The notes beneath the pieces were generated by a model that did no database searches, had not been told where the DNA came from, and worked only from the letters and a program-made list of their open reading frames with translations. This document shows, one piece after another, positions 4,317 through 36,647 of a DNA stretch of 36,647 bases (positions are counted from its first letter, which is position 1; the number at the start of each line of letters is the position of its first letter). Both the position numbers and the translations under genes were made by a program. Source of the DNA: a virus. Location: IMG/VR virus record IMGVR_UViG_3300032223_000248, positions 1 to 36,647 of that record. One strand, 5' to 3'.

Positions 4317-5399
4317 ATGGCGAAAACACCAGACCTAACCCAAGCCACGTTGCGTGGACCAGCTGCACGATTTAATGCTGGTAAACAAAAATACGACGTT
4401 TCGAGCTACTCATACCCAGCAGACATTCAAAGTGAAGAATATGGTGGCAACTTCGTCGCATTCTATATCAACGTGTCTGAAGATTCAAAGATTCTTAATG
4501 ATAAATCTGTAAAAACGATTGGCGATATTCCAACCAGAGATCGTGGTGGTATGATCGCCAACCAAGAGGCTAGTGATGCTGGTAAAGTTACCACAGCTGC
4601 TGCAGCTGGCGGTGCCACTGCTATTTCTGCTTTATGGAAAGAAGGTAAACTACCAGACGACTGGTTTAAAAATTCAGTCAAAACAGTTGCTGGTGGAGCA
4701 GCAATCATGGCAGCTGCGAGCACTACGACTCGTGCTCAAAAGCGTTTAGCCACTGCTATTATGCTTTATATTCCAAATCAACTGTCAATTCGTTATGGAA
4801 CGCAATGGGGTGAAGAAGAAACTTTTGATTATCAAGCTACATTAAATGGTGCTCAAGCATTGGGTAAAGCAGTTACAGGTGCTGCAACTTTAAACTTTGG
4901 ACAAGTGGCTGATAGTGGTAGACAGGGAACTTCAATCGCAGCAGCAATTGCATTTCGTGGAGATAATAAAAATGCTGCAGCTTTATCAGCAGCTACAGGT
5001 TTAGCAGCTAACCCGAAGAAAGAGCAGGTATTTAAGGGTGTTGATTTTAGAACATTCTCAATGGATTATCAGTTCTTTCCACGTAACGAAACTGAAGCAC
5101 AAAATGTTTTAAATATTATTAAGATGTTTAAACTTCACATGCATCCAGAATTTAAAGATGCATCAAACTTCCTTTATATTTACCCATCTGAATTTGATGT
5201 TTATTATTATCAGGGTGGTAAAGAGAACTTAAATATTCATCGTCATACTTCTTGCGTTCTGACTGATATGACTGTTAATTATACACCAAACGGACAATTT
5301 AATACATTCGCGAATGGTATGCCTACGCAAATTTCAATTACGTTAAACTTCCGTGAATTGGCTCAACTTACAAAAGAAAAAATCGGGGATGGTCTATAA
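4317..5399 (+). CDS. 48: Baseplate tail tube cap gp48
   Basis: A 360-residue T4 gp48-type protein. The N-terminal region has the marine gp48 pattern of a short YSYPADIQ segment then FVAFYINV. A middle Ala-rich helical stretch (about residues 85-145) includes the weakly hydrophobic TVAGGAAIMAAAST. The C-terminal half has RYGTQWGEEE, FRTFSMDYQFFPRNETEAQ and a HMHPEF...YPSEFDVYYY region, which resemble tube-like domains. gp48 caps the hub and starts tube polymerisation with gp54. No separate gp54 is seen, so this protein may do both jobs. The stop overlaps gp53 in TAATG. Confidence 0.8.
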   Translation: MAKTPDLTQATLRGPAARFNAGKQKYDVSSYSYPADIQSEEYGGNFVAFYINVSEDSKILNDKSVKTIGDIPTRDRGGMIANQEASDAGKVTTAAAAGGATAISALWKEGKLPDDWFKNSVKTVAGGAAIMAAASTTTRAQKRLATAIMLYIPNQLSIRYGTQWGEEETFDYQATLNGAQALGKAVTGAATLNFGQVADSGRQGTSIAAAIAFRGDNKNAAALSAATGLAANPKKEQVFKGVDFRTFSMDYQFFPRNETEAQNVLNIIKMFKLHMHPEFKDASNFLYIYPSEFDVYYYQGGKENLNIHRHTSCVLTDMTVNYTPNGQFNTFANGMPTQISITLNFRELAQLTKEKIGDGL

Positions 5400-5893
5400 T
5401 GTATTTCGAAAAATTCTCAGACTTTTTATACGACTACGAATTAACTCCAGGACACAGAACAGCTTATATCGTAACAGATATTACAAGAAATGTTCGTTTC
5501 CGTAGAGATATTTTAGCGAACATTACAGTTTACGATGAATATGATATGCAGGATGGAGAAACTCCTGAGATCGTAGCGGATAAATTTTATGGCGATTCCC
5601 AGTTACATTGGGTAGTTATGCTCGCGAATCAGAGATATGATTATCTCAACGATTTTCCAATGACTTATTCTGTGTTAAATAAATTCATTAAAGATAAGTA
5701 TGGTGATGATGTTTATGATACACACCATTACGAAGATGAGAATGGTAATTGGGTAATGTCAAACCAAGCTGGTGCGCTTGAAGTTACTAACTTTGATTAT
5801 GAACAAAAAATAAATGAATCTAAGCGTAAAATTAAAATAGTAACGCAAGATGTTTTGTCTATAATTCTGAAAAACTTTAACGATTTAATTTAA
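5399..5893 (+). CDS. 53: Baseplate wedge gp53
   Basis: A 164-residue T4 gp53 protein. It starts MYFEKFSDFLYDY and has a LysM-like region at about 55-95 (DGETPEIVADKFYGDSQLHW, then VVMLANQRYDYLNDFP), which is the family hallmark. gp53 is the last wedge subunit and bridges neighbouring wedges around the hub. T4 gp53 is about 196 residues, so this form is compact. It sits between gp48 and gp27 with one-base overlaps at both ends, so its translation is probably coupled to both. Confidence 0.88.
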   Translation: MYFEKFSDFLYDYELTPGHRTAYIVTDITRNVRFRRDILANITVYDEYDMQDGETPEIVADKFYGDSQLHWVVMLANQRYDYLNDFPMTYSVLNKFIKDKYGDDVYDTHHYEDENGNWVMSNQAGALEVTNFDYEQKINESKRKIKIVTQDVLSIILKNFNDLI

Positions 5894-7182
5894 TGGCAAA
5901 AGACAAACTTAATTATGCTGGCGATGTAAACCTTGATGACGTAACAATTATATCATCTTCTGGGTTTTCTCAAAACGTAACTAATCAAGTAATAGGTGTT
6001 CAAATCTTTGAAGATTTGTTATCGCCTTTCATCACAGGTACTCTTCTTATTCGAGAATCTATAGATTTGGCAAATTTATTTCCGTTCGTTGGTCAAGAAT
6101 TATTAAAACTAAAAATTAGCACTCCAGGATTAAAAGACGGTAACATTGATGGTCGTTTTTATGTTTATAAAATGAGCGACCGTGTTATGCTTGGTGATAA
6201 ACAAGTAGGTTATCAATTACACTTCACAAGCGTTGATGCTATTGCGGATTTAAATAATCCGATTAGTAAGGGTTTTAATGGATTAGTTTCAGATATAGCC
6301 AAGACCATTTTAACTGATGCGAAATATGGGTTAAGTACGAGTGCTAAATGTTACATTGAAGAAACTAAAAATAAACACAAATATGTTTCCAATTATTGGT
6401 CACCAGTTAAAAACTTAATTTATTTGTGCGAGTTTGCAGTAAATGAAAAAGAATCGCCTACATATGTGTTTTTTGAAAACAGAGCAGGTTATAATTTCTG
6501 TTCTTTAGACTCGTTATATAATCAGGCTAAATTATTACAGACGTTCTCGTTTGATAACTATACTCGCGATTCGAAACCACAGGGTCAAGATGCCAAAAAT
6601 CCAGAAGAAGATTATAAACGAATCTTAGAACTACATATCCCAGAAGGTATTGATTATATCGATAGATTACAGAGTGGTATGTATGGATCTAAACTTTGGT
6701 CATTTGATATGTCAACAGGTGAAGTAGAGATTAATGAATTTGATATGATGAAGAAGTGGTCTGATAGAAACCATTTAAATAAATTTGCGCCAGCAAGATC
6801 TTCAGCTATTGGTAAATTTGAAACAACGATTTTAAATAGACCGAAAGCGTTCGGAACATTCCAAGATTATGATGATGTTTCAAATACAAAAATTATTCAA
6901 GAACGCATCTCCTTAATGAAACAGGCAGAGTCAATTAAGATTGAACTAACTGTTCCAGGAAGATGCGATTATACTGTTGGTCGAATCGTTGAAGTTAATT
7001 TAAATAAAGTTGCTCCAGTTAAAAAGACTGACCCAGAAGATAAAATTAAAGATAAAATGTTCTCTGGTAAATATATGGTCGCTGCGATTAACCATTTTAT
7101 TACTCGAGATAAACATGAATGTAAATTAGAGTTAATTAAAGACTCTATGATATTTGATTTAGAAAAAGGGACTACGAAATAA
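5893..7182 (+). CDS. 27: Baseplate hub gp27-like
   Basis: A 429-residue protein with the layout of T4 gp27 hub proteins and other phage hub proteins: an N-terminal beta-barrel with VIGVQIFEDLLSPFITGTLL and QELLKLKISTPG, a YQLHFTS strand, then NLIYLCEFAVNEKESPTYVF and FENRAGY, which is typical of hub-domain 'YVFFE.R.G' segments. The C-terminal part contains VPGRCDYTVGRIVEV and a SGKYMVAAINH strand, also conserved in hub proteins. It lies immediately before gp5, the natural partner that plugs into the gp27 trimer. The start overlaps gp53 and the stop overlaps gp5 (TAATG). Confidence 0.8.
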   Translation: MAKDKLNYAGDVNLDDVTIISSSGFSQNVTNQVIGVQIFEDLLSPFITGTLLIRESIDLANLFPFVGQELLKLKISTPGLKDGNIDGRFYVYKMSDRVMLGDKQVGYQLHFTSVDAIADLNNPISKGFNGLVSDIAKTILTDAKYGLSTSAKCYIEETKNKHKYVSNYWSPVKNLIYLCEFAVNEKESPTYVFFENRAGYNFCSLDSLYNQAKLLQTFSFDNYTRDSKPQGQDAKNPEEDYKRILELHIPEGIDYIDRLQSGMYGSKLWSFDMSTGEVEINEFDMMKKWSDRNHLNKFAPARSSAIGKFETTILNRPKAFGTFQDYDDVSNTKIIQERISLMKQAESIKIELTVPGRCDYTVGRIVEVNLNKVAPVKKTDPEDKIKDKMFSGKYMVAAINHFITRDKHECKLELIKDSMIFDLEKGTTK

Positions 7183-10100
7183 TGGCAATGGAATTATATT
7201 CAGGTGTCGTTGAAGATCGTGCTGATCCATTACATCTTGGTCGTTGCCGAGTTCGTATTGTAGGTTTACACACTGACGATAAAGTAGAGTTGCCCACGGA
7301 AGATCTTCCTTGGGCAGCACCCCTACAACCAATTACATCAGCAGGTGTTTCTGGTATTGGTTCATCACCTGTTGGTCCAGTTGAAGGAACATGGGTAGCA
7401 GTCGTATTCCGAGATGAATATCAACAAGTTCCAATTATGCTTGGAACATTCAGTGCGGTTCCTCAATCACAAGCTGCTAAACAAGCTGCAGCTGATTCTG
7501 CTGGCACAGTTATTGCTACCGATGGTGGTGTATTAACTAATGGATCTGGAGATCCAGTAACAACATCTGACGGAACTCCGATTGAAGCTGGATCTAAAGA
7601 GGGTATGAATAATCCTCCCAAGGATGCTGAACCATCACCTAAAGAATCACCTAAAAATAATATTACAACTCCTGGTGCTATTAATAGTAATCTTTTGGGT
7701 AAACCTGTTCCGACAGATCCACCTCCAGGATTAGCAGCTAATCAAGTAGCGAAAGCAAGACAGAATATTGGTTTGTTATTATCAGCAATGGATCGTATCG
7801 GAATTACTGGTAAATATGCTCGTGCTTCTATCCTCGCGATTTGCGGTGGTGAATCTAGATGGCAGCCTATTGCTGAGGGATATGTATATTCAGACGCAGC
7901 TTATTTAAATAAAATTTTTAAAGGTGTTTTCCAAGGCGATTTGAATCGAGCCAAACAATATTGTAACTGGCAAGGAACACGTGAAGATTTTTTTAGAGAA
8001 ATTTATAGTCCGAAATATTCAAATGGTCGTGGTGCTGGAAACATTCAACCAGACGATGGAGCATTATTCTATGGTCGTGGATATAACCAATTAACTGGAC
8101 GTACATTATATCAATCCATTCAAACTGGTTTGAAAAAAGATTATGGCATTACAGTTGATATTGTCAACAATCAAAATTCATTATTAACAGACCCACAAGT
8201 ATGTGCGATCTGCTGTATATATTTCTATATTAGAAAAATACCAAACTGGAAAACATTACAAGATGATCCTTCGTTTATTGAAACAGCATTAACTAGAACT
8301 GGTACTGACGCACATCAAGATAATTATAAAACTAAACGTGGTTATTATGCGTATTTCCTTGGATCTAAATTACCAGCTGCAGATCCATCAAATAAACCAC
8401 GTGCCGATACTGTTCCGTCTTATACAAAAGAAGATGTTAAAGAAGAAACTCCAGCACAGAAAACTGCAGCATTAGAAGATCGCTCTTCTGCTAAAACTAA
8501 AGGTTTCCAAGACCCACAGGGTAAATATCCACTTCGTTCGCAAATGAACGAATCATCAACAAATAGATTGGCTCGTGGTGAAGTTACGGGAACTCCTCTA
8601 GAATTTAAAGACGTATCTCGTAAAAGAAATCTTCCTATGGCTGGTGGTGGAACATTTGAACAGCCACTTGCAGGATTTGGTGGTGTCTATCCATATGCCA
8701 AAGTTACAGAAACTGAATCTGGTCATATGTTTATTATGGATGATACACCTACTCACGAGAATATCAGTTTATATCATCGTGCTGGGTCATTCATTGATAT
8801 TGATGCAAACGGAACAATGGTTAAGCGTATCGTTGGCGATGGTTATGAAATTATTGACAGAAATGGTTTGATTTACATTGGTGGTGATTGTAACATTAGC
8901 GTAGGTCGTGGCGTAAATCTTAAAGTTATGGCTGGCGCAGATATTGACATTCACGGTGAAACTAATGTTAATATTATGAACAACGCAAACATTAATGTTG
9001 CTGGTAAATTAAATCTTGGCGTTGGTGATGATATTAACATCTATGGTGCTGGTAATCTTACTATGCAGATTGATGGCGAAATTAAAGTTGCTTCTGGTGA
9101 AGGAACTTCGCTTAAATCTGGAGATTTTATTCATGCTCAAGCTGCTAAAGGTATTGATTTTAAAGCTGGTAAAGAATTTGCTGTTCAAACAGGATCAGAC
9201 GTTTCATTAAAATCAGGTGCCAATACTAACATTCAATCAGCTGGTGATTATAACGCATTGACAAGTGGTGGTAGTTATACTGAAGCAGGTGGTGATGTAA
9301 CTCAGAAAGCTGGTGGAAAAATTGCCAGTGATGGTTCTTCACAAGCTATTCAATCTGGAGCATCTTCTCCTGCAGGTGAAGCAGGTAGTGTTGCAGATAT
9401 TGATGATATTAAAGTTGAAATCGATCCAGGCGAAGTTGATTCAAATGATGGATACAGTTCTGCGATGCCGTTATTGGCAACACCAGTTCGTCCATCTCCA
9501 CCTGTAATGCAAGATGCAAAAATTGTTAATCAGAACAATAACAAATACTCAGATTTCGTTAATAACCCAAATAAATTCTATAACCCCTCAGCTTCTGCAG
9601 GTGGTGTTAAAGGTAACTACGCTGGGACACCGAAAGACGATAATAATGGTCAATCTTTAATTTCTGGTCAAAGTGCATCAGAATTTACTGATTGGTTCCA
9701 GAAGTGTTTAACTCAAACAGCTGAGAATGGATATTGGAGAGAAATGGGTCAAAATGGTAAACCAAGTAACCCAAATATTATCCGTATCTGGGAAGATCTT
9801 GGTTATCCGAAGAATGCGTATTGGTTAACTGACCAAACTCCATGGTGCATGGGATATGTTAATTACACATTGAAACAATGTGGTTACCGTTATGTTCAAA
9901 CTGCTTCTGCTTGGGCAATTCGCGATGCTTATACTAAATGGGCAGCCACCCCAATTACAGATTTCTCTCAAGCACAGGCTGGCGATATTGCTCTCTGGAA
10001 ATATGGCCACGTAAACTTTGTATATGCTAATAACAATGGACGTTTATCTTTTATTGGTGGTAACCAGACCCCAACTGCTAAAACAAACAATCCAAATGAT

Positions 10101-10187
10101 GGCGATGTAACCCTCTCTTGGAAGAGTGGTTATAGACCACCTGGAGACGGAACTTTAGTTGGTATTTGGCGTCCTTCCAAGAAATAA
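7182..10187 (+). CDS. 5: gp5-like central spike with GH19-like and TIGR02594-like wall-degrading domains
   Basis: A 1001-residue spike protein. Residues 1-95 form the gp5 OB-fold (YSGVVEDRADPLHLGRCRVR, then PVEGTWVAVVF and PIMLGTF). Residues 96-185 are a flexible linker. Residues 186-395 look like a GH19 chitinase/lysozyme domain: ICGGESRW with a likely catalytic Glu224, and YGRGYNQLTGR at 298-308. Residues 510-715 are a repetitive beta-helix like the gp5 needle. Residues 829-1000 form a second enzyme-like domain resembling TIGR02594/CHAP cysteine peptidases, with TPWC (Cys889), GHVNFV (His943) and GGNQ. T4 gp5 has a single, unrelated GH24 lysozyme and nothing enzymatic after the needle. No PAAR tip gene is visible. 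The protein punctures the envelope and should cut both glycan and peptide. Confidence 0.85.
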   Translation: MAMELYSGVVEDRADPLHLGRCRVRIVGLHTDDKVELPTEDLPWAAPLQPITSAGVSGIGSSPVGPVEGTWVAVVFRDEYQQVPIMLGTFSAVPQSQAAKQAAADSAGTVIATDGGVLTNGSGDPVTTSDGTPIEAGSKEGMNNPPKDAEPSPKESPKNNITTPGAINSNLLGKPVPTDPPPGLAANQVAKARQNIGLLLSAMDRIGITGKYARASILAICGGESRWQPIAEGYVYSDAAYLNKIFKGVFQGDLNRAKQYCNWQGTREDFFREIYSPKYSNGRGAGNIQPDDGALFYGRGYNQLTGRTLYQSIQTGLKKDYGITVDIVNNQNSLLTDPQVCAICCIYFYIRKIPNWKTLQDDPSFIETALTRTGTDAHQDNYKTKRGYYAYFLGSKLPAADPSNKPRADTVPSYTKEDVKEETPAQKTAALEDRSSAKTKGFQDPQGKYPLRSQMNESSTNRLARGEVTGTPLEFKDVSRKRNLPMAGGGTFEQPLAGFGGVYPYAKVTETESGHMFIMDDTPTHENISLYHRAGSFIDIDANGTMVKRIVGDGYEIIDRNGLIYIGGDCNISVGRGVNLKVMAGADIDIHGETNVNIMNNANINVAGKLNLGVGDDINIYGAGNLTMQIDGEIKVASGEGTSLKSGDFIHAQAAKGIDFKAGKEFAVQTGSDVSLKSGANTNIQSAGDYNALTSGGSYTEAGGDVTQKAGGKIASDGSSQAIQSGASSPAGEAGSVADIDDIKVEIDPGEVDSNDGYSSAMPLLATPVRPSPPVMQDAKIVNQNNNKYSDFVNNPNKFYNPSASAGGVKGNYAGTPKDDNNGQSLISGQSASEFTDWFQKCLTQTAENGYWREMGQNGKPSNPNIIRIWEDLGYPKNAYWLTDQTPWCMGYVNYTLKQCGYRYVQTASAWAIRDAYTKWAATPITDFSQAQAGDIALWKYGHVNFVYANNNGRLSFIGGNQTPTAKTNNPNDGDVTLSWKSGYRPPGDGTLVGIWRPSKK

Positions 10188-10202
10188 TGTTTGCAAATAT
10201 GA

Positions 10203-10209
10203 ATAAATA
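10203..10209 (+). promoter_or_regulatory. Possible late promoter motif abutting the gp25 start
   Basis: ATAAATA lies only five bases before the gp25 ATG. T4-type late transcripts begin about six or seven bases after the motif, which would place the start point at the ATG itself and yield an almost leaderless message. No Shine-Dalgarno sequence is seen before gp25. The motif could also be chance in AT-rich DNA. Confidence 0.3.
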
Positions 10210-10214
10210 CTAAT

Positions 10215-10607
10215 ATGGCAAAGACAACAAGACTTTTTACAGACCTCGATTTAAACTTCACAGCCCACCCAGTAACGAAAGATATCGTCCTTCGTTATGA
10301 TGATGCAGCTGTGAAAGAGAGTATTAAGAACTTAGTTATGACTGTTAATTATGAGCGTCCATTCCACAGCGAAATTGGAACTCCAGTCAATTCTCTACTG
10401 TTCGAAAATAATACGCCAGCTTTACCGATCTTATTACAGAGAATTATTACAGATACAATTAATAACTTCGAACCACGTGCGAATTTAATTCAAGTTGATG
10501 TGGTTAATAGAGAAGAACAAAATGCGATTGAAGTTACAATTGTATTTACGATTTTAAACACAACTAGACCAATAACATTAACAATGGTACTGGAAAGAAC
10601 CCGATAA
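10215..10607 (+). CDS. 25: Baseplate wedge / sheath initiator gp25
   Basis: A 130-residue protein of the GPW/gp25 family. It carries LFTDLDLNFTAHPVTKDI at the N-terminus, the helix 'KESIKNLVMTVNYERPFHSEIG' region with its conserved ERPF..EIG core, and a C-terminal beta hairpin (AIEVTIVFTIL). gp25 forms part of the wedge core with gp6 and seeds sheath assembly. The length fits T4 gp25 (132 residues). The spacer after gp5 is only 27 bases. The start is fixed by family alignment, although no ribosome site is evident. It overlaps gp6 by one base. Confidence 0.92.
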   Translation: MAKTTRLFTDLDLNFTAHPVTKDIVLRYDDAAVKESIKNLVMTVNYERPFHSEIGTPVNSLLFENNTPALPILLQRIITDTINNFEPRANLIQVDVVNREEQNAIEVTIVFTILNTTRPITLTMVLERTR

Positions 10608-24138: not shown

Positions 24139-25317
24139 ATGGCGACACTCGTTTTAAGACAATCTAAGGGTTCTCCCCTTACAAACAATGAAGTTGATGC
24201 TAACTTCACCAATCTAAACGCAGATATTCAAACCAGAGTATTGATCACAGACTTTAATGCGAACAATATTCTTACATATCTAAAAACTGTTGACGGATCT
24301 GGTTCTGGTTTAGACGCTGATACTGTTGACGGATATAATGCCGTTGCTGCTATGCCAGCTGGACCTGACTATAGTTCGCTTGTAGCTCGCGATGCAGCAG
24401 GTAACTCAGTATTTAATAGTATCACTTCTACTGGAACAATTAATGGTGTTTCAGCTACCTTTAGTGGTGCTCTGAATGTTGGATCCATCTCAATTTCTGG
24501 TGGTTCTATTCCTGTTGCCGTTGGTGGTACTGGCGCAACTAATGCCTCAAATGCCCGAGCTAACCTTGGGTTAACTATCGGAACTAACGTCCAGGCATGG
24601 AATACCAAACTAGACGCTCTGACTACAGCAACATATGCAGCTGACACAATCCCTTATTTTACTGGTGCGACAACAACCAGCGCAACATCATTAACTGCTT
24701 ATGCCAGAACTTTGATTGCGGCAAGTTCAGATTCTGCTGCTCGTACTGTTCTTGGTGTTCGTGTTGGTACTGACGTACAACCATTTAGTGCTGAATTGTC
24801 AGCGGAAGCTAGTTTGGCAACTAACGGTATTACTGTTAGAAATGGATCAAACTCTAGAGTAACACGAGCAATCACTGGTGTTACTGGTGAAATTGAAGTA
24901 TCCAACGGCGATGGTGTTTCTGGCAACCCAGCGTTGTCAATTGGTTCCAATATCCCACGTCTAGCAAATAATAATACTTTTGCTGGTGGTTCAAATACCT
25001 TCTCGGGAACTGTTTACGCAGCTAGTTTCCAAGTTTCTTCTGATGCAAGATTAAAAGAGAACGTGGAAACGCTAAATAATGCTGTAGAGACTGTTTCGAA
25101 ACTCCGTGGTGTGTCATATACAAAGAATGGAGTTCCTGAAATTGGTGTAATCGCCCAAGAAATTGAAACAGTATTACCTAAAGTAGTTGGGGAAGACCCT
25201 AACGGATATAAAACTGTTGCATATGGCAACATTGTTGGTTTATTGATCGAAGCTATCAAAGAACAACAAGAAACTATTAAAGAATTAACTACTCGTTTAG
25301 AGAAATTGGAGAACTAA
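24139..25317 (+). CDS. Tail fibre with C-terminal S74 intramolecular chaperone
   Basis: A 392-residue fibre. The N-terminus (ATLVLRQSKGSPLTNNEVDA, then NFTNLNADI) is the common attachment segment of marine phage fibres. The middle has VDGYNAVAAMPAG, then repeated short beta units including GGTGATNASNARANLGLT. Residues from about 296 form a Peptidase_S74 domain: SDARLKENVETL holds the Ser-Lys cleavage site, GVIAQEIETVLPKVV follows, and IVGLLIEAIKEQQETIKEL forms the final helix. Such domains help the fibre trimerise, then cut themselves off before the SDARLK serine. AAGGGA precedes the start. The next gene begins one base after the stop, suggesting that the cysteine-rich protein is made with this fibre. 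Confidence 0.85.
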   Translation: MATLVLRQSKGSPLTNNEVDANFTNLNADIQTRVLITDFNANNILTYLKTVDGSGSGLDADTVDGYNAVAAMPAGPDYSSLVARDAAGNSVFNSITSTGTINGVSATFSGALNVGSISISGGSIPVAVGGTGATNASNARANLGLTIGTNVQAWNTKLDALTTATYAADTIPYFTGATTTSATSLTAYARTLIAASSDSAARTVLGVRVGTDVQPFSAELSAEASLATNGITVRNGSNSRVTRAITGVTGEIEVSNGDGVSGNPALSIGSNIPRLANNNTFAGGSNTFSGTVYAASFQVSSDARLKENVETLNNAVETVSKLRGVSYTKNGVPEIGVIAQEIETVLPKVVGEDPNGYKTVAYGNIVGLLIEAIKEQQETIKELTTRLEKLEN

Positions 25318-25318
25318 T

Positions 25319-25687
25319 ATGACTGTAGGAGCAACTGGTTTTAGAAACTCAGGTGGTACCGACCTTAACGGTATTTTCTGGGGATATAACGGAGACACAG
25401 GTAACCGTGGCGTAAACGACAGTAACGGTAACTGCGGTTGGAACTGCGCATGTAATGCGTGTAACTCTGCGTGTAACTGTAACTGTGGTAACTGTGACGC
25501 TGCCGACATTTCATTAAACGTAATTGTTACTGATTGGCGTTTGAATATCTTCCGTAATACTGATCGTGCTGATGGTATCCGTCACGATTCGCAAGACAAC
25601 ACTATGGGCATGTTCCGTTATATTCGTGTAAATTGCAACTGTAACTGTAATTGCAACTGTAACTGTAACTGTAATTGCAACTGCTAA
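25319..25687 (+). CDS. Asn-Cys repeat protein, possible modified peptide or fibre-tip protein
   Basis: A 122-residue protein of no family I recognise. Residues 1-35 are glycine/asparagine-rich (TGFRNSGGTDLNGIFWGYNG). Residues 36-59 hold eight cysteines, mostly preceded by Asn or Ala (Cys39, 43, 45, 48, 52, 54, 56, 59). Residues 60-104 are cysteine-free (LNVIVTDWRLNIFR). Residues 105-122 are nine uninterrupted Asn-Cys pairs that end the protein. In total 17 of 122 residues are Cys. GGAG is well placed, the start follows the S74 fibre stop by one base, and no signal peptide is seen. Metal or Fe-S binding, disulphide ladders, or enzymatic thioether formation are all possible. A radical SAM gene lies about 1 kb downstream. 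Confidence 0.8.
   Translation: MTVGATGFRNSGGTDLNGIFWGYNGDTGNRGVNDSNGNCGWNCACNACNSACNCNCGNCDAADISLNVIVTDWRLNIFRNTDRADGIRHDSQDNTMGMFRYIRVNCNCNCNCNCNCNCNCNC
25626..25684 (+). repeat. Hexamer tandem repeat encoding Asn-Cys
   Basis: Nine tandem copies of AAYTGY occupy 25631-25684. The order of AATTGC and AACTGT units shows a longer unit (AATTGC AACTGT AACTGT) that was copied, then extended by one AACTGT. Synonymous codons vary, so the Asn-Cys pattern looks kept at the protein level. A less regular version lies in the middle of the gene (25436-25497). Confidence 0.85.
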
Positions 25688-25701: not shown

Positions 25702-26661
25702 ATGGCTACATTAGCACAAAGACCAATCGCAGGATTTGATGAAACTGGAGAGAAATCCGTTATCAATGGAAATTACCGTTTTACATACGGATTCGTAGAT
25801 AATAAAATTACAGTTAAAGTTGATAAGATTGTTAGACCAGATCTAACTAGAGAACATAATGACGAAGAAATAACATTTGAAGAAGTAGCTTCACGTGAGT
25901 TTACATCTTCAGAGTTCGCATTAAGAACTGATCACATGGCTTGGTATGTTGACTTTGATGTTGTTAACAATACAATCCTCGACCCATTAGACGTAATCGC
26001 CTATGGCGCAGCGAATGCATACAAAGAACCAAACTATAATGTTTTTGGTTTACATCGCGATTTAATGGCTCGTTATGATTCATATACATTACTACCGATG
26101 TTTTATGTTAAGACGTTTGATTACGGAACAGTTAATTTTGAAAATTCTTTAATTGTATTTTATACAGTTAAACATACTGAACCATCTCCTGGTGATACAA
26201 TTTTAAACAATGAAGTTATTACTTTAGAAGATGAGAACGCAACTCGTTTCTGGATTCGCGATAATCTATTATCCGCTGTAACATTCTCTATTAAAGATTC
26301 AGAAGGAAACTCTGTTGGAAATGTTTCTCCAAAATTAGAATCTACTCCAACTAAAAGACGTTATGGTGTTACTGACGAACCTGCTATGACTCCAAAACTG
26401 AATGCGTATGTAGCAACTTTACCAGCTGGTAAATATAATGTTACTTGCTCTTTCGCCAAGGAATTATACCCAACTGCTGTTAATTCATACGATATCGAGA
26501 TGATTAATGGTATTAGTGCGAAAAACAATATTACGATTGGTGCTGGACAGTCTGATGTTAACATCGACTTAACTGGTTTGAGTACGGGTGATGTATCTAG
26601 AATGAAATTTAATTTAGGCGCATTTACTGCTTACGCTCAATTATTGATTACCATTTCTTAA
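25702..26661 (+). CDS. Unknown 319-residue probable virion protein
   Basis: I do not recognise this protein. It is 319 residues with no signal peptide and no transmembrane segment, mostly beta-strand with short linkers. The N-terminal 150 residues include VINGNYRFTYGFVDNKITVK and a MAWYVDFDVVNN strand. The middle has MFYVKTFDYGTVNFENSLIV. The C-terminal 120 residues look like an Ig-like domain (VTFSIKDSEGNSVGNVSP; LPAGKYNVTCSF) followed by a short strand region. AAAAGGA precedes the start. It follows the Asn-Cys gene by 14 bases and ends before a terminator, so it probably belongs to the same fibre transcription unit. A fibre tip, capping protein or partner of the Asn-Cys protein is possible. 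Confidence 0.6.
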   Translation: MATLAQRPIAGFDETGEKSVINGNYRFTYGFVDNKITVKVDKIVRPDLTREHNDEEITFEEVASREFTSSEFALRTDHMAWYVDFDVVNNTILDPLDVIAYGAANAYKEPNYNVFGLHRDLMARYDSYTLLPMFYVKTFDYGTVNFENSLIVFYTVKHTEPSPGDTILNNEVITLEDENATRFWIRDNLLSAVTFSIKDSEGNSVGNVSPKLESTPTKRRYGVTDEPAMTPKLNAYVATLPAGKYNVTCSFAKELYPTAVNSYDIEMINGISAKNNITIGAGQSDVNIDLTGLSTGDVSRMKFNLGAFTAYAQLLITIS

Positions 26662-26678: not shown

Positions 26679-26685
26679 CTAAATA
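26679..26685 (+). promoter_or_regulatory. Late promoter CTAAATA of the radical SAM operon
   Basis: CTAAATA lies 41 bases before the radical SAM start. Its AAATA forms part of the left arm of the terminator that follows, so transcripts begun here start inside the hairpin and escape it, while read-through from upstream would be stopped. Confidence 0.6.
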
Positions 26686-26713
26686 CCCTATGAAAGTAGG
26701 GTATTTTTATTTT
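26681..26713 (+). terminator. Rho-independent terminator after the Asn-Cys/319-residue unit
   Basis: A 10-base-pair perfect stem (AAATACCCTA, 26681-26690, with TAGGGTATTT, 26697-26706), a six-base loop and a T-rich tail. It ends the fibre/Asn-Cys transcription unit. Confidence 0.82.
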
Positions 26714-26725
26714 ATAAGGAATAAT

Positions 26726-28195
26726 ATGAGTAAATTTAAGTTGATCTTCCAAGGATCAAATGATGTGAAAGAAACTTTGATATATGACCCAATGACTTCA
26801 GAGATGGTATGGGAAAGTACTGGTAATAAACCTACCTTGACACATATCTCTCATGGGTTAGAGTATAAGATTGATGCTAAAGTTTGGACGCCAGCAAAGG
26901 TAACAAACCCACATAATCCAGAATTACACGGAAAAAAATCCGATAAACCAACTACGCTTAAAATCACAATGGGTCTTAAGTGTAATTATGCTTGCTCTTA
27001 CTGTAACCAAGCACACCAACCCCATGATCCAGTTGGCGGTCCAGAAGATGCTGAAGATTTGGTTCAAAAAATCAAAAACAATTTTAAGTTTTCCACCTAT
27101 GATACTTTCCGTTTAGAATTTTGGGGTGGTGAACCAATGGTATATTGGAAGACATTAAAACCTTTAGCTGAAAAGATTCGTACAGTTTATCCAAATGCTC
27201 AGTTTATGATGGTCACTAATGGTTCATTGTTGACCCGAGAAAAGATTGAATGGTTTAATCGTATGGGGTTTGCGATCGGTATGTCTCATGATGGACCACT
27301 CCATGCACAAAACCGTGGACCAGATCCACTAGACGAACCACCAGCAAAAGACGCTGTTGTTTATGCTCTTAAAACAATGGGTCAAAATAGATTTACATTT
27401 AACTGCGTATTAACACGTGAGAATGTTTCTATTGCTGCAGTTCGTGATTTTATTCTAGATAAACTAAATCGTAAAGATTATGGATATGATTATGTTGAAA
27501 TTGCTCAGCATGATCTTCAAGTAACAACAGAAGAACTAATGTTACCATATGATGACTCAGGTATGACTCACTCAATCCAAACCCCAGATGAAAAGAAAGA
27601 GATCCTTCATTCATTGTTTTGGGAAACAATTGAAAGTAGAAACCAATTTAGTTGGACAGTTAACCAGAAGATTCAAGGATTCTTCGAGTCTATCGTTTAT
27701 CAACGACCAGCTGAAGTTCTTGGTCAGAAGTGCGGTATGGATAAAGAAGATACCATTGCCATCGATATGAAAGGTAATGTGACTACATGTCAAAATACTT
27801 CATCTTTGACTAAACATAACCTTGGTAATATCGAGCAGTTGGATGATGTTAGATTAACGAACTCATATCACTGGTCAACTCGTAAAGAATGTCCTTCTTG
27901 CCCAGTAGTTCAGTTATGTCAAGGTGCTTGTTTATTCTTGGAAGACCAATATTGGACTCAAGCGTGCGAAAACCTTTTCTGGTATAATTTGGCTATCCTT
28001 GCTGCTAGTATGTTCATTATGACAGATGGATTGGTTTTAGTTGAAATCCAAGGTGAGAAGATTAGATTTGATGGTGAAACTTCACTTCCTGTTATCGATA
28101 TTGACTATGTTAAGTCAGGTGGTAAACAGAAATCATGGAAGGTTCGTAAGCCAGTTGGCATTCCAGTTGTATCGGTTCCAGCTACACCACAGTAA
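26726..28195 (+). CDS. Radical SAM enzyme with SPASM domain
   Basis: A 489-residue enzyme. I take the ATG at 26726, preceded by AAGGA; the in-frame ATG at 26690 lies inside the terminator stem. Cys86, Cys90 and Cys93 form the CxxxCxxC motif for the SAM-binding 4Fe-4S cluster (KCNYACSYCNQ), and WGGEP lies at 133-137. The C-terminal SPASM region is complete: Cys336-x13-Gly-x4-Cys355, then Cys389, 392, 398 and 402 (CxxCx5Cx3C), and Cys414, enough for two auxiliary clusters. Such enzymes mature peptides (thioether or carbon-carbon links) or proteins (formylglycine). The likely substrate is unproven; the cysteine-rich protein upstream is the obvious candidate. The 107-residue gene follows with a one-base overlap. 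Confidence 0.93.
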   Translation: MSKFKLIFQGSNDVKETLIYDPMTSEMVWESTGNKPTLTHISHGLEYKIDAKVWTPAKVTNPHNPELHGKKSDKPTTLKITMGLKCNYACSYCNQAHQPHDPVGGPEDAEDLVQKIKNNFKFSTYDTFRLEFWGGEPMVYWKTLKPLAEKIRTVYPNAQFMMVTNGSLLTREKIEWFNRMGFAIGMSHDGPLHAQNRGPDPLDEPPAKDAVVYALKTMGQNRFTFNCVLTRENVSIAAVRDFILDKLNRKDYGYDYVEIAQHDLQVTTEELMLPYDDSGMTHSIQTPDEKKEILHSLFWETIESRNQFSWTVNQKIQGFFESIVYQRPAEVLGQKCGMDKEDTIAIDMKGNVTTCQNTSSLTKHNLGNIEQLDDVRLTNSYHWSTRKECPSCPVVQLCQGACLFLEDQYWTQACENLFWYNLAILAASMFIMTDGLVLVEIQGEKIRFDGETSLPVIDIDYVKSGGKQKSWKVRKPVGIPVVSVPATPQ

Positions 28196-28518
28196 TGGCT
28201 TTTCTTGATTGTAATATTTGGGAAATTAACCAGTTCCCAAAATATGGAGTACATTTGGATAGGTATACCCTAGCCAATGTATTTCAATACAGATCTGATG
28301 TTTCTGAGTATCAAAGTAACAACTTTTATATCCAGATTCCAGAGTTTGAGATAAATGGAACAGATGAACAAAAATCATTTATCAATAAATATAAGGAGAA
28401 ATTGATACAATATCGTATCCCATTCCTTATAAATCGAATAAATAGAGGTATGGAGAGTTGGGTAATAGACCTGTCAATGTCTGATTACCTCTTGCATAAA
28501 ATAACAAAGGAGACGTAA
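28195..28518 (+). CDS. Unknown 107-residue protein in the radical SAM operon
   Basis: I do not recognise this protein. It is aromatic-rich and soluble, with no signal peptide or transmembrane segment. Visible segments are FLDCNIWEINQFPKYGVHLD, a QSNNFYIQIPEFEI strand pair, a lysine-rich helix (DEQKSFINKYKEKLIQY) and a C-terminal WVIDLSMSDYLLHKI. It overlaps the radical SAM stop (TAATG) and ends directly before the TRAP-type gene. In many peptide-maturation operons a small protein of this size delivers the leader peptide to the enzyme, but I see no winged-helix pattern to claim that here. Its position makes it a partner of the enzyme or the binding protein. Confidence 0.6.
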   Translation: MAFLDCNIWEINQFPKYGVHLDRYTLANVFQYRSDVSEYQSNNFYIQIPEFEINGTDEQKSFINKYKEKLIQYRIPFLINRINRGMESWVIDLSMSDYLLHKITKET

Positions 28519-29466
28519 ATGGAACAAAAACACGTAAAATGGGTTATCGCTCACGAACCTATTGGTTTGTTCTTGAAAGTTGCTGATTCATTCGCTAAGG
28601 AAGTTAATGAACAGACTGGTGGAAAGTTTAACATTGAAGTTCTTTCATTGTCAGACTATGCTACAAAATACAATGATGGTAAGAAAATTACCAAGAACGA
28701 CCTAATGGAGTTGGTAAATACTGGCGCAATCGAAATGAGCCATATCTACACTACTTGGTTGGCCGACTACAATAAAGATCTACACGCATTGGATCTACCA
28801 TTCCTATTCCGCGACCATGACCACGCTGACGCTGTTCTAGAAGGTCCAATCGGTAGCGATTTGTTAGCTGGTGTTTCTAAACAATCAAACATCAAAGCCA
28901 TGTCTTTCACTTACTCTGGTGGCTATCGTGTTGTTCCAGCTAATTTTAAAGCTGACACTGTAGAAGCATGGCAAGGTAAAACTGTTCGTACAAGTCGCAG
29001 CCCAGTTGCTGTTGAGACTTTCAAATTGCTTGGTGCTGAGCCTAAAGAGAATATTGCTTTGGAAGAAATGAACGCAGCTGCTAAAGCTGGTGAAATTGAA
29101 GCTGGCGAATCTACTTACGTTCGTGTATTCCCACTACAACAGAACGAAGCATTTAGCGTTGTTAATGACACTGCTCACAGTTTGTTTTTGACTTCTATTA
29201 TCGTTAACCAAGATTTCTTCAATCAGTTTGATGCTGAAACTCGTCAGATTATGTCTACTGCTGCATTTAATGCTGCTCGTAAAGAGCGTCGTGAATCAGT
29301 TGCTGACATTCCAAATATCTTGGCTGAGTGTGAAGAAAAAGGTGTTATGGTTGTTACTATGTCTGAAAAAGAAAAAGCTAAGTTTAAAGAAATAACTTCT
29401 CAGGTTTATGAGAAGTTTGCTGACTATTTTACTCCAGGTCTAGTAAATGGCATTCAGTTACATTAA
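28519..29466 (+). CDS. TRAP-type (DctP family) solute-binding protein without signal peptide
   Basis: A 315-residue DctP-type binding protein. Landmarks are VADSFAKEVNEQTGGKFNIE (20-40), the LDLPFLFRDHDHADAVLEGP segment (91-110), AMSFTYSGGYRVV, and WQGKTVRTSRSPVAVETFKL with Arg157 at the place of the conserved carboxylate-binding arginine. The following LLGAEPKEN is also typical. Bacterial relatives start with a Sec signal peptide; this one begins with MEQKHVKWVIAH, directly at the first strand of the mature fold, with a strong AAAGGAG site. No TRAP membrane subunits are nearby. It is therefore cytoplasmic or virion-borne rather than a normal periplasmic protein. A ligand-binding or host-attachment role in the particle is conceivable. 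A host origin is likely. Confidence 0.88.
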   Translation: MEQKHVKWVIAHEPIGLFLKVADSFAKEVNEQTGGKFNIEVLSLSDYATKYNDGKKITKNDLMELVNTGAIEMSHIYTTWLADYNKDLHALDLPFLFRDHDHADAVLEGPIGSDLLAGVSKQSNIKAMSFTYSGGYRVVPANFKADTVEAWQGKTVRTSRSPVAVETFKLLGAEPKENIALEEMNAAAKAGEIEAGESTYVRVFPLQQNEAFSVVNDTAHSLFLTSIIVNQDFFNQFDAETRQIMSTAAFNAARKERRESVADIPNILAECEEKGVMVVTMSEKEKAKFKEITSQVYEKFADYFTPGLVNGIQLH

Positions 29467-29483: not shown

Positions 29484-29484
29484 T

Positions 29485-29512
29485 TGGGGAGCTTCGGCTC
29501 CCCATTTTTATT
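29485..29512 (+). terminator. Rho-independent terminator with TTCG loop
   Basis: An 8-base-pair stem (TGGGGAGC, 29485-29492, with GCTCCCCA, 29497-29504) closed by a stable C(TTCG)G tetraloop and followed by TTTTTATTT. It ends the radical SAM/TRAP unit. Confidence 0.9.
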
Positions 29513-29522
29513 TGAGGATATT

Positions 29523-30545
29523 ATGCAAGTTCTATATTACAATGTGTTCAATGTGCCAGAGATGATTAATAGTGATAATGTAACACCTTACCTATCACCA
29601 AACTTTTCATCAGATTTATTTTCTAATTATAGAAAATTTGGAATGGATAAACAGAATTTTGTATATGATAGAACTGGAACTATTCCTCATTATGTCAACA
29701 TAAAACCAAACCTAGCTCCAATCCCCAACACACAAGGTTTTAATAAATCGTTTGAGCAAGTTGTTGAAGAACGAGCCAAAGAACTTCTTAGTTTTAATAA
29801 ACAAGTTAATGTTGTATGGAGTGGTGGAATTGATAGTACGCTGGCTTTGTTTGCTTTAATTAAATACGCAAATGACCCAAGCCAGATAACTGTTTACGGA
29901 ACATATACATCAATTCTAGAATCAGGTAATCTATTTGATAATAATATTCTACCTAAGGGTGTGCGTCATAGAATTAGGGTTGCTTCAAAGAAAGAGTTTG
30001 AAAGTCCAAACGAAATATATGTAACTGGATTTATGGGTAATCAGTTATTTGGTCCGACAGATGACTTCTCTAAAAACTCAAAGGTAACATTATTTCATCA
30101 CCAATTTAATTATGAAGATCCTTTGGCTCCATACGAGAAGTGTATTTCTGGAGAAAAATTAGAATTTCTGCAGCCGATGATTGACGCTTCTCCAAAGAAA
30201 ATAGAAACAGTTAGAGATTTACGTTGGTGGTTTATTTTTAATTTAGACTGGTATACAGCTAAATTTGATGCACTGGTTCATACTAAGAATAGAAACGATG
30301 TCTATCATTTCTTCGATACAGAGGATTTTCAAAGATATGTTCTTACTACTAAAGAACCATTTACGAAAGAGGTTGGTAACGCATTGACCCATCGTTGGGA
30401 AATGCGACAACTAATTGAAGATTACAGTGGTAATAAACATTACCCTTGGAATAAAACAAAAGGGGTTTCGAATCTTAGCAACTCGAACCCCTCTTGGATG
30501 TTTTTACTTGAAGACTACAGTTTAGTAGTTAGTAAACCCAACTAA
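29523..30545 (+). CDS. Asparagine-synthase-like PP-loop enzyme
   Basis: A 340-residue protein. I place the start at the ATG at 29523 (GAGGA upstream); the TTG further upstream falls in the terminator. Residues 94-110 read QVNVVWSGGIDSTLALF, with the SGGxDS PP-loop at 100-105 that binds ATP pyrophosphate. GFMGNQLFG at 169-177 resembles the GxGgDELFGGY motif of asparagine synthase, though the acidic pair is missing (NQ), so full activity is uncertain. The N-terminal glutaminase domain is absent, so ammonia or another amine would have to be the donor. Relatives of this fold make amides, including macrocycle or lactam bonds. It follows the TRAP-type gene behind its own promoter/stem-loop cassette. 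Confidence 0.72.
   Translation: MQVLYYNVFNVPEMINSDNVTPYLSPNFSSDLFSNYRKFGMDKQNFVYDRTGTIPHYVNIKPNLAPIPNTQGFNKSFEQVVEERAKELLSFNKQVNVVWSGGIDSTLALFALIKYANDPSQITVYGTYTSILESGNLFDNNILPKGVRHRIRVASKKEFESPNEIYVTGFMGNQLFGPTDDFSKNSKVTLFHHQFNYEDPLAPYEKCISGEKLEFLQPMIDASPKKIETVRDLRWWFIFNLDWYTAKFDALVHTKNRNDVYHFFDTEDFQRYVLTTKEPFTKEVGNALTHRWEMRQLIEDYSGNKHYPWNKTKGVSNLSNSNPSWMFLLEDYSLVVSKPN
30453..30492 (-). terminator. Terminator of the minus-strand gene, embedded in the PP-loop gene
   Basis: On the minus strand, AGGGGTTCGA pairs with TCGAAACCCCT with one bulged A, and a TTTTGTTTT tail follows. It lies about 30 bases after the stop of the convergent gene and inside the 3' coding part of the PP-loop gene. Confidence 0.72.
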
Positions 30546-35675: not shown

Positions 35676-36647
35676 ATGTCAATTCAAATACAATTAAGAA
35701 GAGGTACTGCTACTCAACATACAACATTTACTGGTGTGTTGGGTGAAGCCACAGTTAATACAACTAATAATTCTTTACATGTTCACGACGGTACCACTGC
35801 TGGTGGATTTGAGTTAGCCAGAAAAGATCTGAGCAACGTCGCTTCGATTCCAAATTCTAAATTAGCGAACTCAACAATTTCTGGTATTGCTCTTGGTTCT
35901 AACCTAGCAGCACTAACAATCGGAACTGGTTTAAGTGGTACTTCTTATAATGGCTCAACTGCTGTTACTATTGCTCTAGCCAATACAGCTGTTACTGCTG
36001 GAACTTACGGTTCTTCTACAGCAGTTCCAGTTATCACTGTCGATGCGCAGGGTCGTATCACTTTGGCAACAACTGCTGCAATTTCAGGTGCTTTAACTTT
36101 TACTGGTGATGTAACTGGTACTGGTACAACAGGGACTTCAACAACATTAACACTCGCAAATAGCGGAGTCACTGCTGGCACTTATTCTTACGTAACAGTA
36201 AATGCCAAGGGTTTAGTAACTTCAGCTACTCAAGCAACTACAACTAATATTGCTGAAGGAACAAACCTTTACTATACTCAAGCTAGATTTGATACTGCGT
36301 TTGGTGCAAAATCAACTACTAACTTAACAGAAGGCACAAACCTTTACTATACTCAAAATAGATTTGATTCTGCGTTCGGCGCGAAATCTACAACAAACTT
36401 AACAGAAGGTACTAACTTATATTACACAGATGCACGTGCCAGAGCTGCTCATTCAGCTGGTACTGGTATTTCTTACAATAGCACTACTGGTGTTATTAGT
36501 ACTTCTCAAGATATTTCTGCATCTGGTTCTCCAACTTTCGCAGCTTTAACAACAACTGGTAATGCCAATGTTGGTGGAGCATTAGTAGTTACAGGTAATT
36601 TAACTGTTAATGGTACTACTGAATATTTGAATTCAGTTACTGTTCAA
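35676..36647 (+). CDS. Tail fibre, partial at window end
   Basis: A fibre gene with 324 codons visible and no stop before the window ends. The start has AAAGGTAAAG upstream. The N-terminus (IQIQLRRGTATQHTTFTGVL, then GEATVNTTNNSLHVHDG) is an attachment module like that of Mtd N-terminal domains. Residues 88-165 hold AVPVITVDAQGRITLA and a YVTVNAKGLVTSA copy of the same joint. Residues from about 194 contain three 75-base units (EGTNLYYTQARFDTAFGAKS and variants), a frequent fibre repeat, followed by SGTGISYNSTTGVIS-type and GNANVGGALVVTGNLTVNGT units. Confidence 0.8.
   Translation, partial: MSIQIQLRRGTATQHTTFTGVLGEATVNTTNNSLHVHDGTTAGGFELARKDLSNVASIPNSKLANSTISGIALGSNLAALTIGTGLSGTSYNGSTAVTIALANTAVTAGTYGSSTAVPVITVDAQGRITLATTAAISGALTFTGDVTGTGTTGTSTTLTLANSGVTAGTYSYVTVNAKGLVTSATQATTTNIAEGTNLYYTQARFDTAFGAKSTTNLTEGTNLYYTQNRFDSAFGAKSTTNLTEGTNLYYTDARARAAHSAGTGISYNSTTGVISTSQDISASGSPTFAALTTTGNANVGGALVVTGNLTVNGTTEYLNSVTVQ
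36255..36440 (+). repeat. Three 75-base fibre repeats (EGTNLYYT units)
   Basis: Units begin at 36255, 36330 and 36405, each exactly 75 bases apart, encoding EGTNLYYT followed by RFD.AFGAK-type residues; the third is cut short after LYYTDARARA. They form the stiff shaft or joint of the last fibre. Confidence 0.82.

Follow-up and report, generated by a model that had tools for sequence, protein, structure and literature searches.

A radical-SAM maturase gene paired with C-terminal Asn–Cys arrays on phage fibre-associated proteins: a candidate system for chemical finishing of the virus tip

Radical-SAM maturases are known chiefly from bacterial peptide natural products and from enzyme maturation. 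QhpD, the quinohaemoprotein amine dehydrogenase maturase, puts thioethers into a subunit of a larger protein, and CxPxR is the motif of the sulphatase type. In freyrasin-type systems (PapA/PapB, NF047865), a radical-SAM/SPASM maturase gene lies near the gene for a Cys-rich precursor, PapA – a leader–core peptide. PapB makes thioethers from Cys to acidic residues, adjacent ones included, and takes Cys-Xn-Asp with n from 0; the reversed order, with Asp before Cys, was tested and is not processed (PMC9413430). Similarly, in the streptococcal RaS-RiPP NxxcA/NxxcB a SPASM enzyme forms a Cys–Asn β-thioether, Asn (in NxxcA) and Asp (in freyrasin) both being established acceptors of radical-SAM β-thioethers (PMC8326336).

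The locus described here lies in a viral sequence of 36,647 nucleotides (the window, by which the whole stretch analysed is meant), classed by its sequence as a T4-like phage, with a gp6-like gene nearest to those of Methylophilales and Pelagibacter myophages (about 42%). Three of its genes would form a late-type cassette, made up of a fibre-associated protein with an (Asn/Ala/Asp)-Cys array as its C-terminus, an Ig-like partner and a radical-SAM/SPASM maturase. The features of the locus are as follows.

24139..25317, plus strand: tail-fibre protein with a C-terminal Peptidase_S74 chaperone domain (PF13884, 52.9 bits against a cut-off of 22)
25319..25687, plus strand: gene 1, a Cys-rich protein of 122 residues and the proposed substrate (ATG to TAA; 17 Cys)
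25430..25495, plus strand: middle cluster of gene 1 with eight Cys, residues 38–59 (sequence, alignment and codon counts)
25631..25684, plus strand: (Asn-Cys)9 of gene 1, residues 105–122, the proposed maturation tag (shuffle test and codon variation)
25702..26661, plus strand: gene 2, 319 residues, with an Ig-like C-terminal domain (alignment A2, neighbourhoods and AlphaFold2)
26679..26706, plus strand: CTAAATAC motif inside a terminator-like hairpin that separates gene 2 from the maturase gene (terminator scan)
26726..28195, plus strand: gene 3, predicted radical-SAM/SPASM peptide maturase (Pfam, PHROG, TIGR04085 and conserved Cys)
28195..28518, plus strand: protein of 107 residues, found behind the maturase in seven relatives (identity 41–69%)
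28519..29466, plus strand: DctP-family solute-binding protein (PF03480, 150 bits against 23.4)
29523..30545, plus strand: SGGIDS-motif (PP-loop-like) protein, conserved in relatives and at locus L033

To the extent that sequence can tell, the cassette works like a radical-SAM RiPP system, its enzyme falls into no curated maturase family tested and its substrate class differs from those described. PapB needs Cys before Asp, whereas the array of the window and its relatives has Asn, Asp or Ala before Cys; and where PapA is a leader–core peptide, the putative substrate here is a fibre-associated viral protein with a C-terminal array. NxxcA receives one cross-link per peptide, while the proteins considered here have up to 17 Cys, with Asn enriched at position −1 rather than −3. 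The substrate of QhpD is a dehydrogenase subunit, not a virion protein, and the anaerobic sulphatase-maturating enzyme (TIGR03942) has the radical-SAM/SPASM architecture in common, but its CxPxR is absent from the substrate here. Maturation of the virion by radical chemistry might form a category of its own. In the open literature searched, which takes in few subscription journals or preprints, nothing was found that ties the maturase to Cys arrays or to fibre maturation.

Domain matches and conserved Cys residues place the predicted product of gene 3, at superfamily level, among the radical-SAM/SPASM maturases. It scores 39.7 bits with the Pfam Radical_SAM model (PF04055, cut-off 29.5) and 36.5 with the SPASM domain model TIGR04085 (cut-off 27), and matches phrog_1802 (E 6e-63), a family already catalogued as ‘radical SAM domain-containing protein’ and filed under ‘other’, with neither partner nor function. 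The CxxxCxxC motif of the SAM cluster is invariant in alignment A1 (C98, C102 and C105) and present in 106/106 maturase clusters, and seven SPASM Cys are likewise invariant in A1 (C348, C367, C401, C404, C410, C414 and C426), the full seven-Cys pattern of two auxiliary clusters being found in 99 of the 106. The gene probably starts at the ATG at 26726 and not at the opening of the reading frame at 26690, since the former start is conserved in relatives.

Among curated NCBIfam families, the PapB ranthipeptide maturase model matches 11/11 members and is the top one among the models listed; the QhpD model TIGR03906 matches all 11 as well. The scores of the window maturase itself are nonetheless far below every equivalog cut-off – 70.7 against 340 bits for NF047865, 67.7 against 349 for TIGR03942, 56 against 453 for TIGR03906 and 43.9 against 425 for the SCIFF maturase TIGR03974, whose hallmark of six Cys in 45 residues also differs from the Cys pattern of gene 1 – so that the reaction is not readable from a family. 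Full-length relatives are rare in named phages, where 3 of 50,697 records cover at least 80% of the maturase. The pair of array and enzyme is present in at least two phages in culture, Achromobacter phages JWF and 2-1; in JWF the maturase homologue is annotated as a sulphatase-maturating enzyme and adjoins a fibre with a Hint domain.

A preliminary description of this DNA, made from its letters and reading frames, had drawn attention to gene 1 as a 17-Cys protein with eight Cys in a middle cluster and nine at the C-terminus, an account confirmed from the reading frame at 25319–25687; Asn or Ala precedes most Cys of the middle cluster, and a single base separates the gene from the stop of the S74 fibre (25317). 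When the residues of gene 1 were shuffled 100,000 times, the longest run of Asn-Cys pairs was 4 against the 9 observed, and a chance or low-complexity origin of the array was rejected on these shuffles together with codon variation. IMG/VR yielded nine first relatives of gene 1 (52–78% identity), all nine preceded by the S74 fibre, which for its part has many PHROG tail-fibre matches. In the near family 278 of 283 cells in the Cys columns keep Cys, the nine C-terminal Cys are invariant (18-row protein alignment A3), and both TGT and TGC occur in 16 of the 17 Cys columns, as counted over 17 aligned rows that represent 16 distinct sequences, one of them entered twice. Because Cys is kept while its codons swap, selection acts on the protein, as had been proposed; variable repeats without Cys conservation, which the description had named as evidence against its reading, are not what the near family displays. 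The description had also spoken of strict Asn-Cys pairs, which holds for the (NC)9 of the window but not for relatives with Ala or Asp at some positions. Near-family arrays comprise 9–11 pairs, and the residue before the array Cys, with all arrays counted, is Asn in 331 cases, Ala in 86, Asp in 46 and Gln in 6. Finally, the layout had been thought unfamiliar among phage families, whereas it is in fact common to a large, apparently undescribed class. Queries with gene 1 itself gave nothing usable in named phages, Pfam, NCBIfam and the PDB and one chance-level match in PHROGs, and the AlphaFold2 model of its product was uninformative (pLDDT 38).

The strongest evidence on the function of the array, absent from the preliminary description, is the maturase gene two genes downstream of gene 1. 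The maturase is found in the same order in seven of the nine first relatives (72–88% identity), with gene 2 between it and the array gene and with the 107-residue, DctP and SGGIDS-motif proteins after it, and farther from the Cys-protein gene in the other two. A profile of the enzyme, applied more broadly, matched bacterial genomes at 76 loci and viral contigs in more than 580 stretches. Once maturases had been clustered at 90% identity, 84 clusters had at least 6 kb of upstream DNA, and 75 of these had a same-strand NC-array gene within 8 kb upstream, at a median distance of 1.4 kb (44/44 viral, 2/2 named-phage and 29/38 cellular contigs); downstream of the maturase, an array gene was found in none of 57 clusters. 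Array-like frames on the opposite strand, present in 19 of the 84 regions, are probably a by-product of the (AAYTGY)n repeat, the complement of which can be translated as N-C or S-C. The nine clusters with no upstream array are all from bacterial contigs, several of them from Variovorax or Ramlibacter with other neighbours. In three Variovorax loci (L140, L141 and L152) and one from Ramlibacter (L142), the array-less maturase adjoins two conserved large genes, and this bacterial branch may be a separate cellular system.

The linkage also holds in the reverse direction, from array to enzyme. Exact DNA scans with array-only queries were run on 2.9 million viral contigs. A scan for (NC)5-stop, with degenerate codons and no part of the enzyme in the query, returned 23 contigs, and the maturase was found in 20/23 of the whole records (E<=2e-152). 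A second, for NCNCNCAC, with records already seen left out, gave the maturase in 37 of 45, including two with a divergent maturase alone (about 1e-54) and one with a fragment alone. Pooled, 57 of the 68 records tested carry the maturase, and all 11 that do not stop 75–2184 bp downstream of the array, their contigs breaking off at the point where the enzyme gene, or the rest of it, would be expected. A matched control scan for (NG)4-stop gave the maturase in 0/15. The counts were made with regular expressions and profiles on contigs many of which are fragments, and they are not all independent events, as many loci derive from related phages. The array gene and the maturase are almost certainly a pair, in which a maturase gene is linked to a characteristic precursor as in RiPP systems, and comparison of the loci makes it very probable that the array is the substrate of the enzyme.

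What the enzyme would do to the array is suggested in part by the residues around each Cys. Isolated Cys in array proteins have Asn at −1 in 72% of cases, an 8-fold enrichment, so that Asn-Cys looks like the unit. At −3, Asn is enriched only 2.9-fold outside arrays, while inside (NC)n the NxxC spacing holds trivially; NxxC as an exact geometry was downgraded on this comparison, and the known geometry does not seem to be specially required. On the mechanism proposed here, the maturase would recognise Asn-Cys units and modify one array many times over; the likeliest product is a thioether, with the sulphur of Cys linked to a carbon atom of Asn or Asp. By analogy with the known enzymes, this particular bond has about an even chance of being the right one; counted against it is Ala, which lacks an activated side chain and occupies 18% of the positions before the array Cys. 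Thioether chemistry had been among the options of the preliminary description and was, in retrospect, a sensible guess, whereas its other options, binding of metal or of an Fe-S cluster and simple disulphide bonds, are now less favoured.

It seems rather unlikely that the maturase acts on the array through some other radical-SAM reaction, be it epimerisation (giving alternating L- and D-residues), conversion of Cys to formylglycine or the formation of C–C cross-links. The anaerobic sulphatase maturase is indeed among the closest families, its model matching 11/11 members, but the best NCBIfam match of the profile is a thioether maturase, and gene 1 contains zero proline and hence no CxPxR motif on which a formylglycine-forming enzyme of the sulphatase type would act. 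As to epimerisation, PoyD works in a 1,3-pattern (PMC8326336), to which an alternating array would be well matched; against this, the epimerase YydG matches weakly and over the core only.

A decidedly improbable alternative is that the array is an unmodified metal, Fe-S or disulphide ladder and that the maturase serves another protein – gene 2, for instance – or a cofactor of the tip. Soft metals are generally bound by dense Cys arrays, and gene 2, too, is a companion of the maturase at most of the loci examined, usually between it and the array gene but in L041 behind the maturase. Yet in every record of sufficient length the array-only scans led to the maturase, and Asn directly before Cys is unexpected for simple metal binding. 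Gene 2, moreover, is highly divergent: relatives have 24–34% identity and the wide set 11–17% to the window copy, with the Ig-like C-terminal domain retained. Its AlphaFold2 model (pLDDT 84) weakly matches generic Ig-like domains (best E 2e-3).

The preferred reading, in which the maturase modifies the array, extends to a large group of carriers. There are about 97 non-redundant array proteins, mostly fibre-like and including a few likely chance frames, which range from 65 to more than 700 residues and have many unrelated N-termini, so that the array is what they share; no common N-terminal leader was found among them, nor an RRE-domain model among the Pfam and NCBIfam matches listed. Many are tail-fibre-like proteins of 300–700 residues whose own C-terminus bears the array, among them the whole tail fibres of L038, L044 and L059, while small stand-alone carriers resemble the window protein. 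Most arrays lie at the C-terminus or within 10 residues of it. Where long extensions follow, these are autoprocessing domains of the Hint type (about 11 carriers), an S74 domain (one) or an uncharacterised domain (three), and in several Hint carriers the last array Cys is where the Hint domain begins. The uncharacterised domain (L288, L061 at 5171–5965, and L310) has about 165 residues, starts with [GS]KIICTKLY and has no Pfam match.

Array genes have fibre, S74 and baseplate genes around them, and both context and architecture are those of fibre genes, in keeping with the place that the preliminary description had given gene 1. Its idea of a fibre tip is likewise favoured by the other tail-fibre-like carriers with a C-terminal array or with one before Hint or S74. 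Given the fibre and baseplate context, the T4-like phage and the many carriers that are fibres, the modified product probably sits at the virion tip. Its last 18–22 residues would there become a stiff, reduction-proof and protease-resistant end of the tail fibre, and a Hint or S74 domain behind the array could cut itself off, leaving the array as the mature C-terminus. That the product is instead a diffusible RiPP-like peptide – a toxin, a signal or a superinfection factor – and no part of the virion is very improbable: small precursor-like carriers of 67–130 residues do exist, in tandem in L048, L051 and L061 (up to three copies per phage in L048 and L051), but many carriers are tail-fibre-like proteins of the size and layout given above, encoded among virion genes, and the loci inspected showed no export genes and nothing that was assigned as a RiPP transporter or peptidase.

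Several further genes accompany the cassette in some phages, the optional neighbours including 2OG-Fe(II) oxygenases, a second radical-SAM enzyme and S74 fibres. The oxygenase models PF13759 and PF13640 match 8 and 4, respectively, of the 36 neighbouring proteins that were scanned. Such genes, at times three in a row, lie beside the cassette in L037, L038, L048, L089 and L215 and represent a possible second modification. A second, shorter radical-SAM gene, found in many alphaproteobacterial-type phages, lies between gene 2 and the maturase gene in L173, L174, L093, L040 and others. A second architecture is seen in L368 (2000–9500 of a 160.9-kb phage contig) and L369 (340–8181): a protein of 67–68 residues with ...HTHLFYDDYSTNCNCNCNCACGRGSC or a similar sequence at its end is followed by one of gene-2 size (about 320 residues) and then by a row of some 3–5 radical-SAM-like genes, one of them on the other strand and all divergent from the window maturase.

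As regards the rest of the window, the CTAAATAC motif was noted by eye as a possible T4-type late promoter; a CTAAATA-like motif is visible at this site in most relatives and the hairpin in some only. For CTAAATAC itself the window shows no enrichment (3 copies against 1.84 expected), a count that gives no support to a distinct late promoter. The 107-residue protein has no Pfam match; L044, where the substrate is unrelated, likewise has a look-alike of it behind the maturase. The DctP protein has 75–90% identity in relatives and no signal peptide obvious by eye; a DctP-type protein also occurs in L044 (6621–7565), beside a different array protein. The SGGIDS-motif protein, with a copy in L033 at 9598–10605, is only weakly similar to PP-loop ATPase models; its start is likelier the ATG at 29523 than the TTG at 29484, since the latter overlaps a strong terminator-like hairpin (29485–29504). 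At 36255–36416, a 75-bp unit occurs in 2.2 tandem copies of 86% identity.

Taken jointly and with the bond left open, the array as substrate and the tip as its destination form, on gene content and context, a reasonably likely combination. The complete picture – an (Asn-Cys)n tag on unrelated fibre proteins that becomes a poly-thioether ladder at a receptor- or membrane-contacting tip, exposed by self-cleaving domains – is more tentative and somewhat short of an even chance. If true, it would describe a portable virion maturation tag used by phages of several tail types and by prophages of Alpha- and Betaproteobacteria, and it would account for the Cys-rich tag on the roughly 97 non-redundant proteins annotated as hypothetical. 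Were a single enzyme to cross-link such a C-terminal tag on many scaffolds, it would be a useful tool for protein engineering. For phage biology, a maturase with a C-terminal fibre tag would mean a new class of post-translational modification in the part of the virion that meets the host, and the pairing of the two genes in many unrelated phages suggests a widespread, as yet undescribed chemical finishing of the virus tip.
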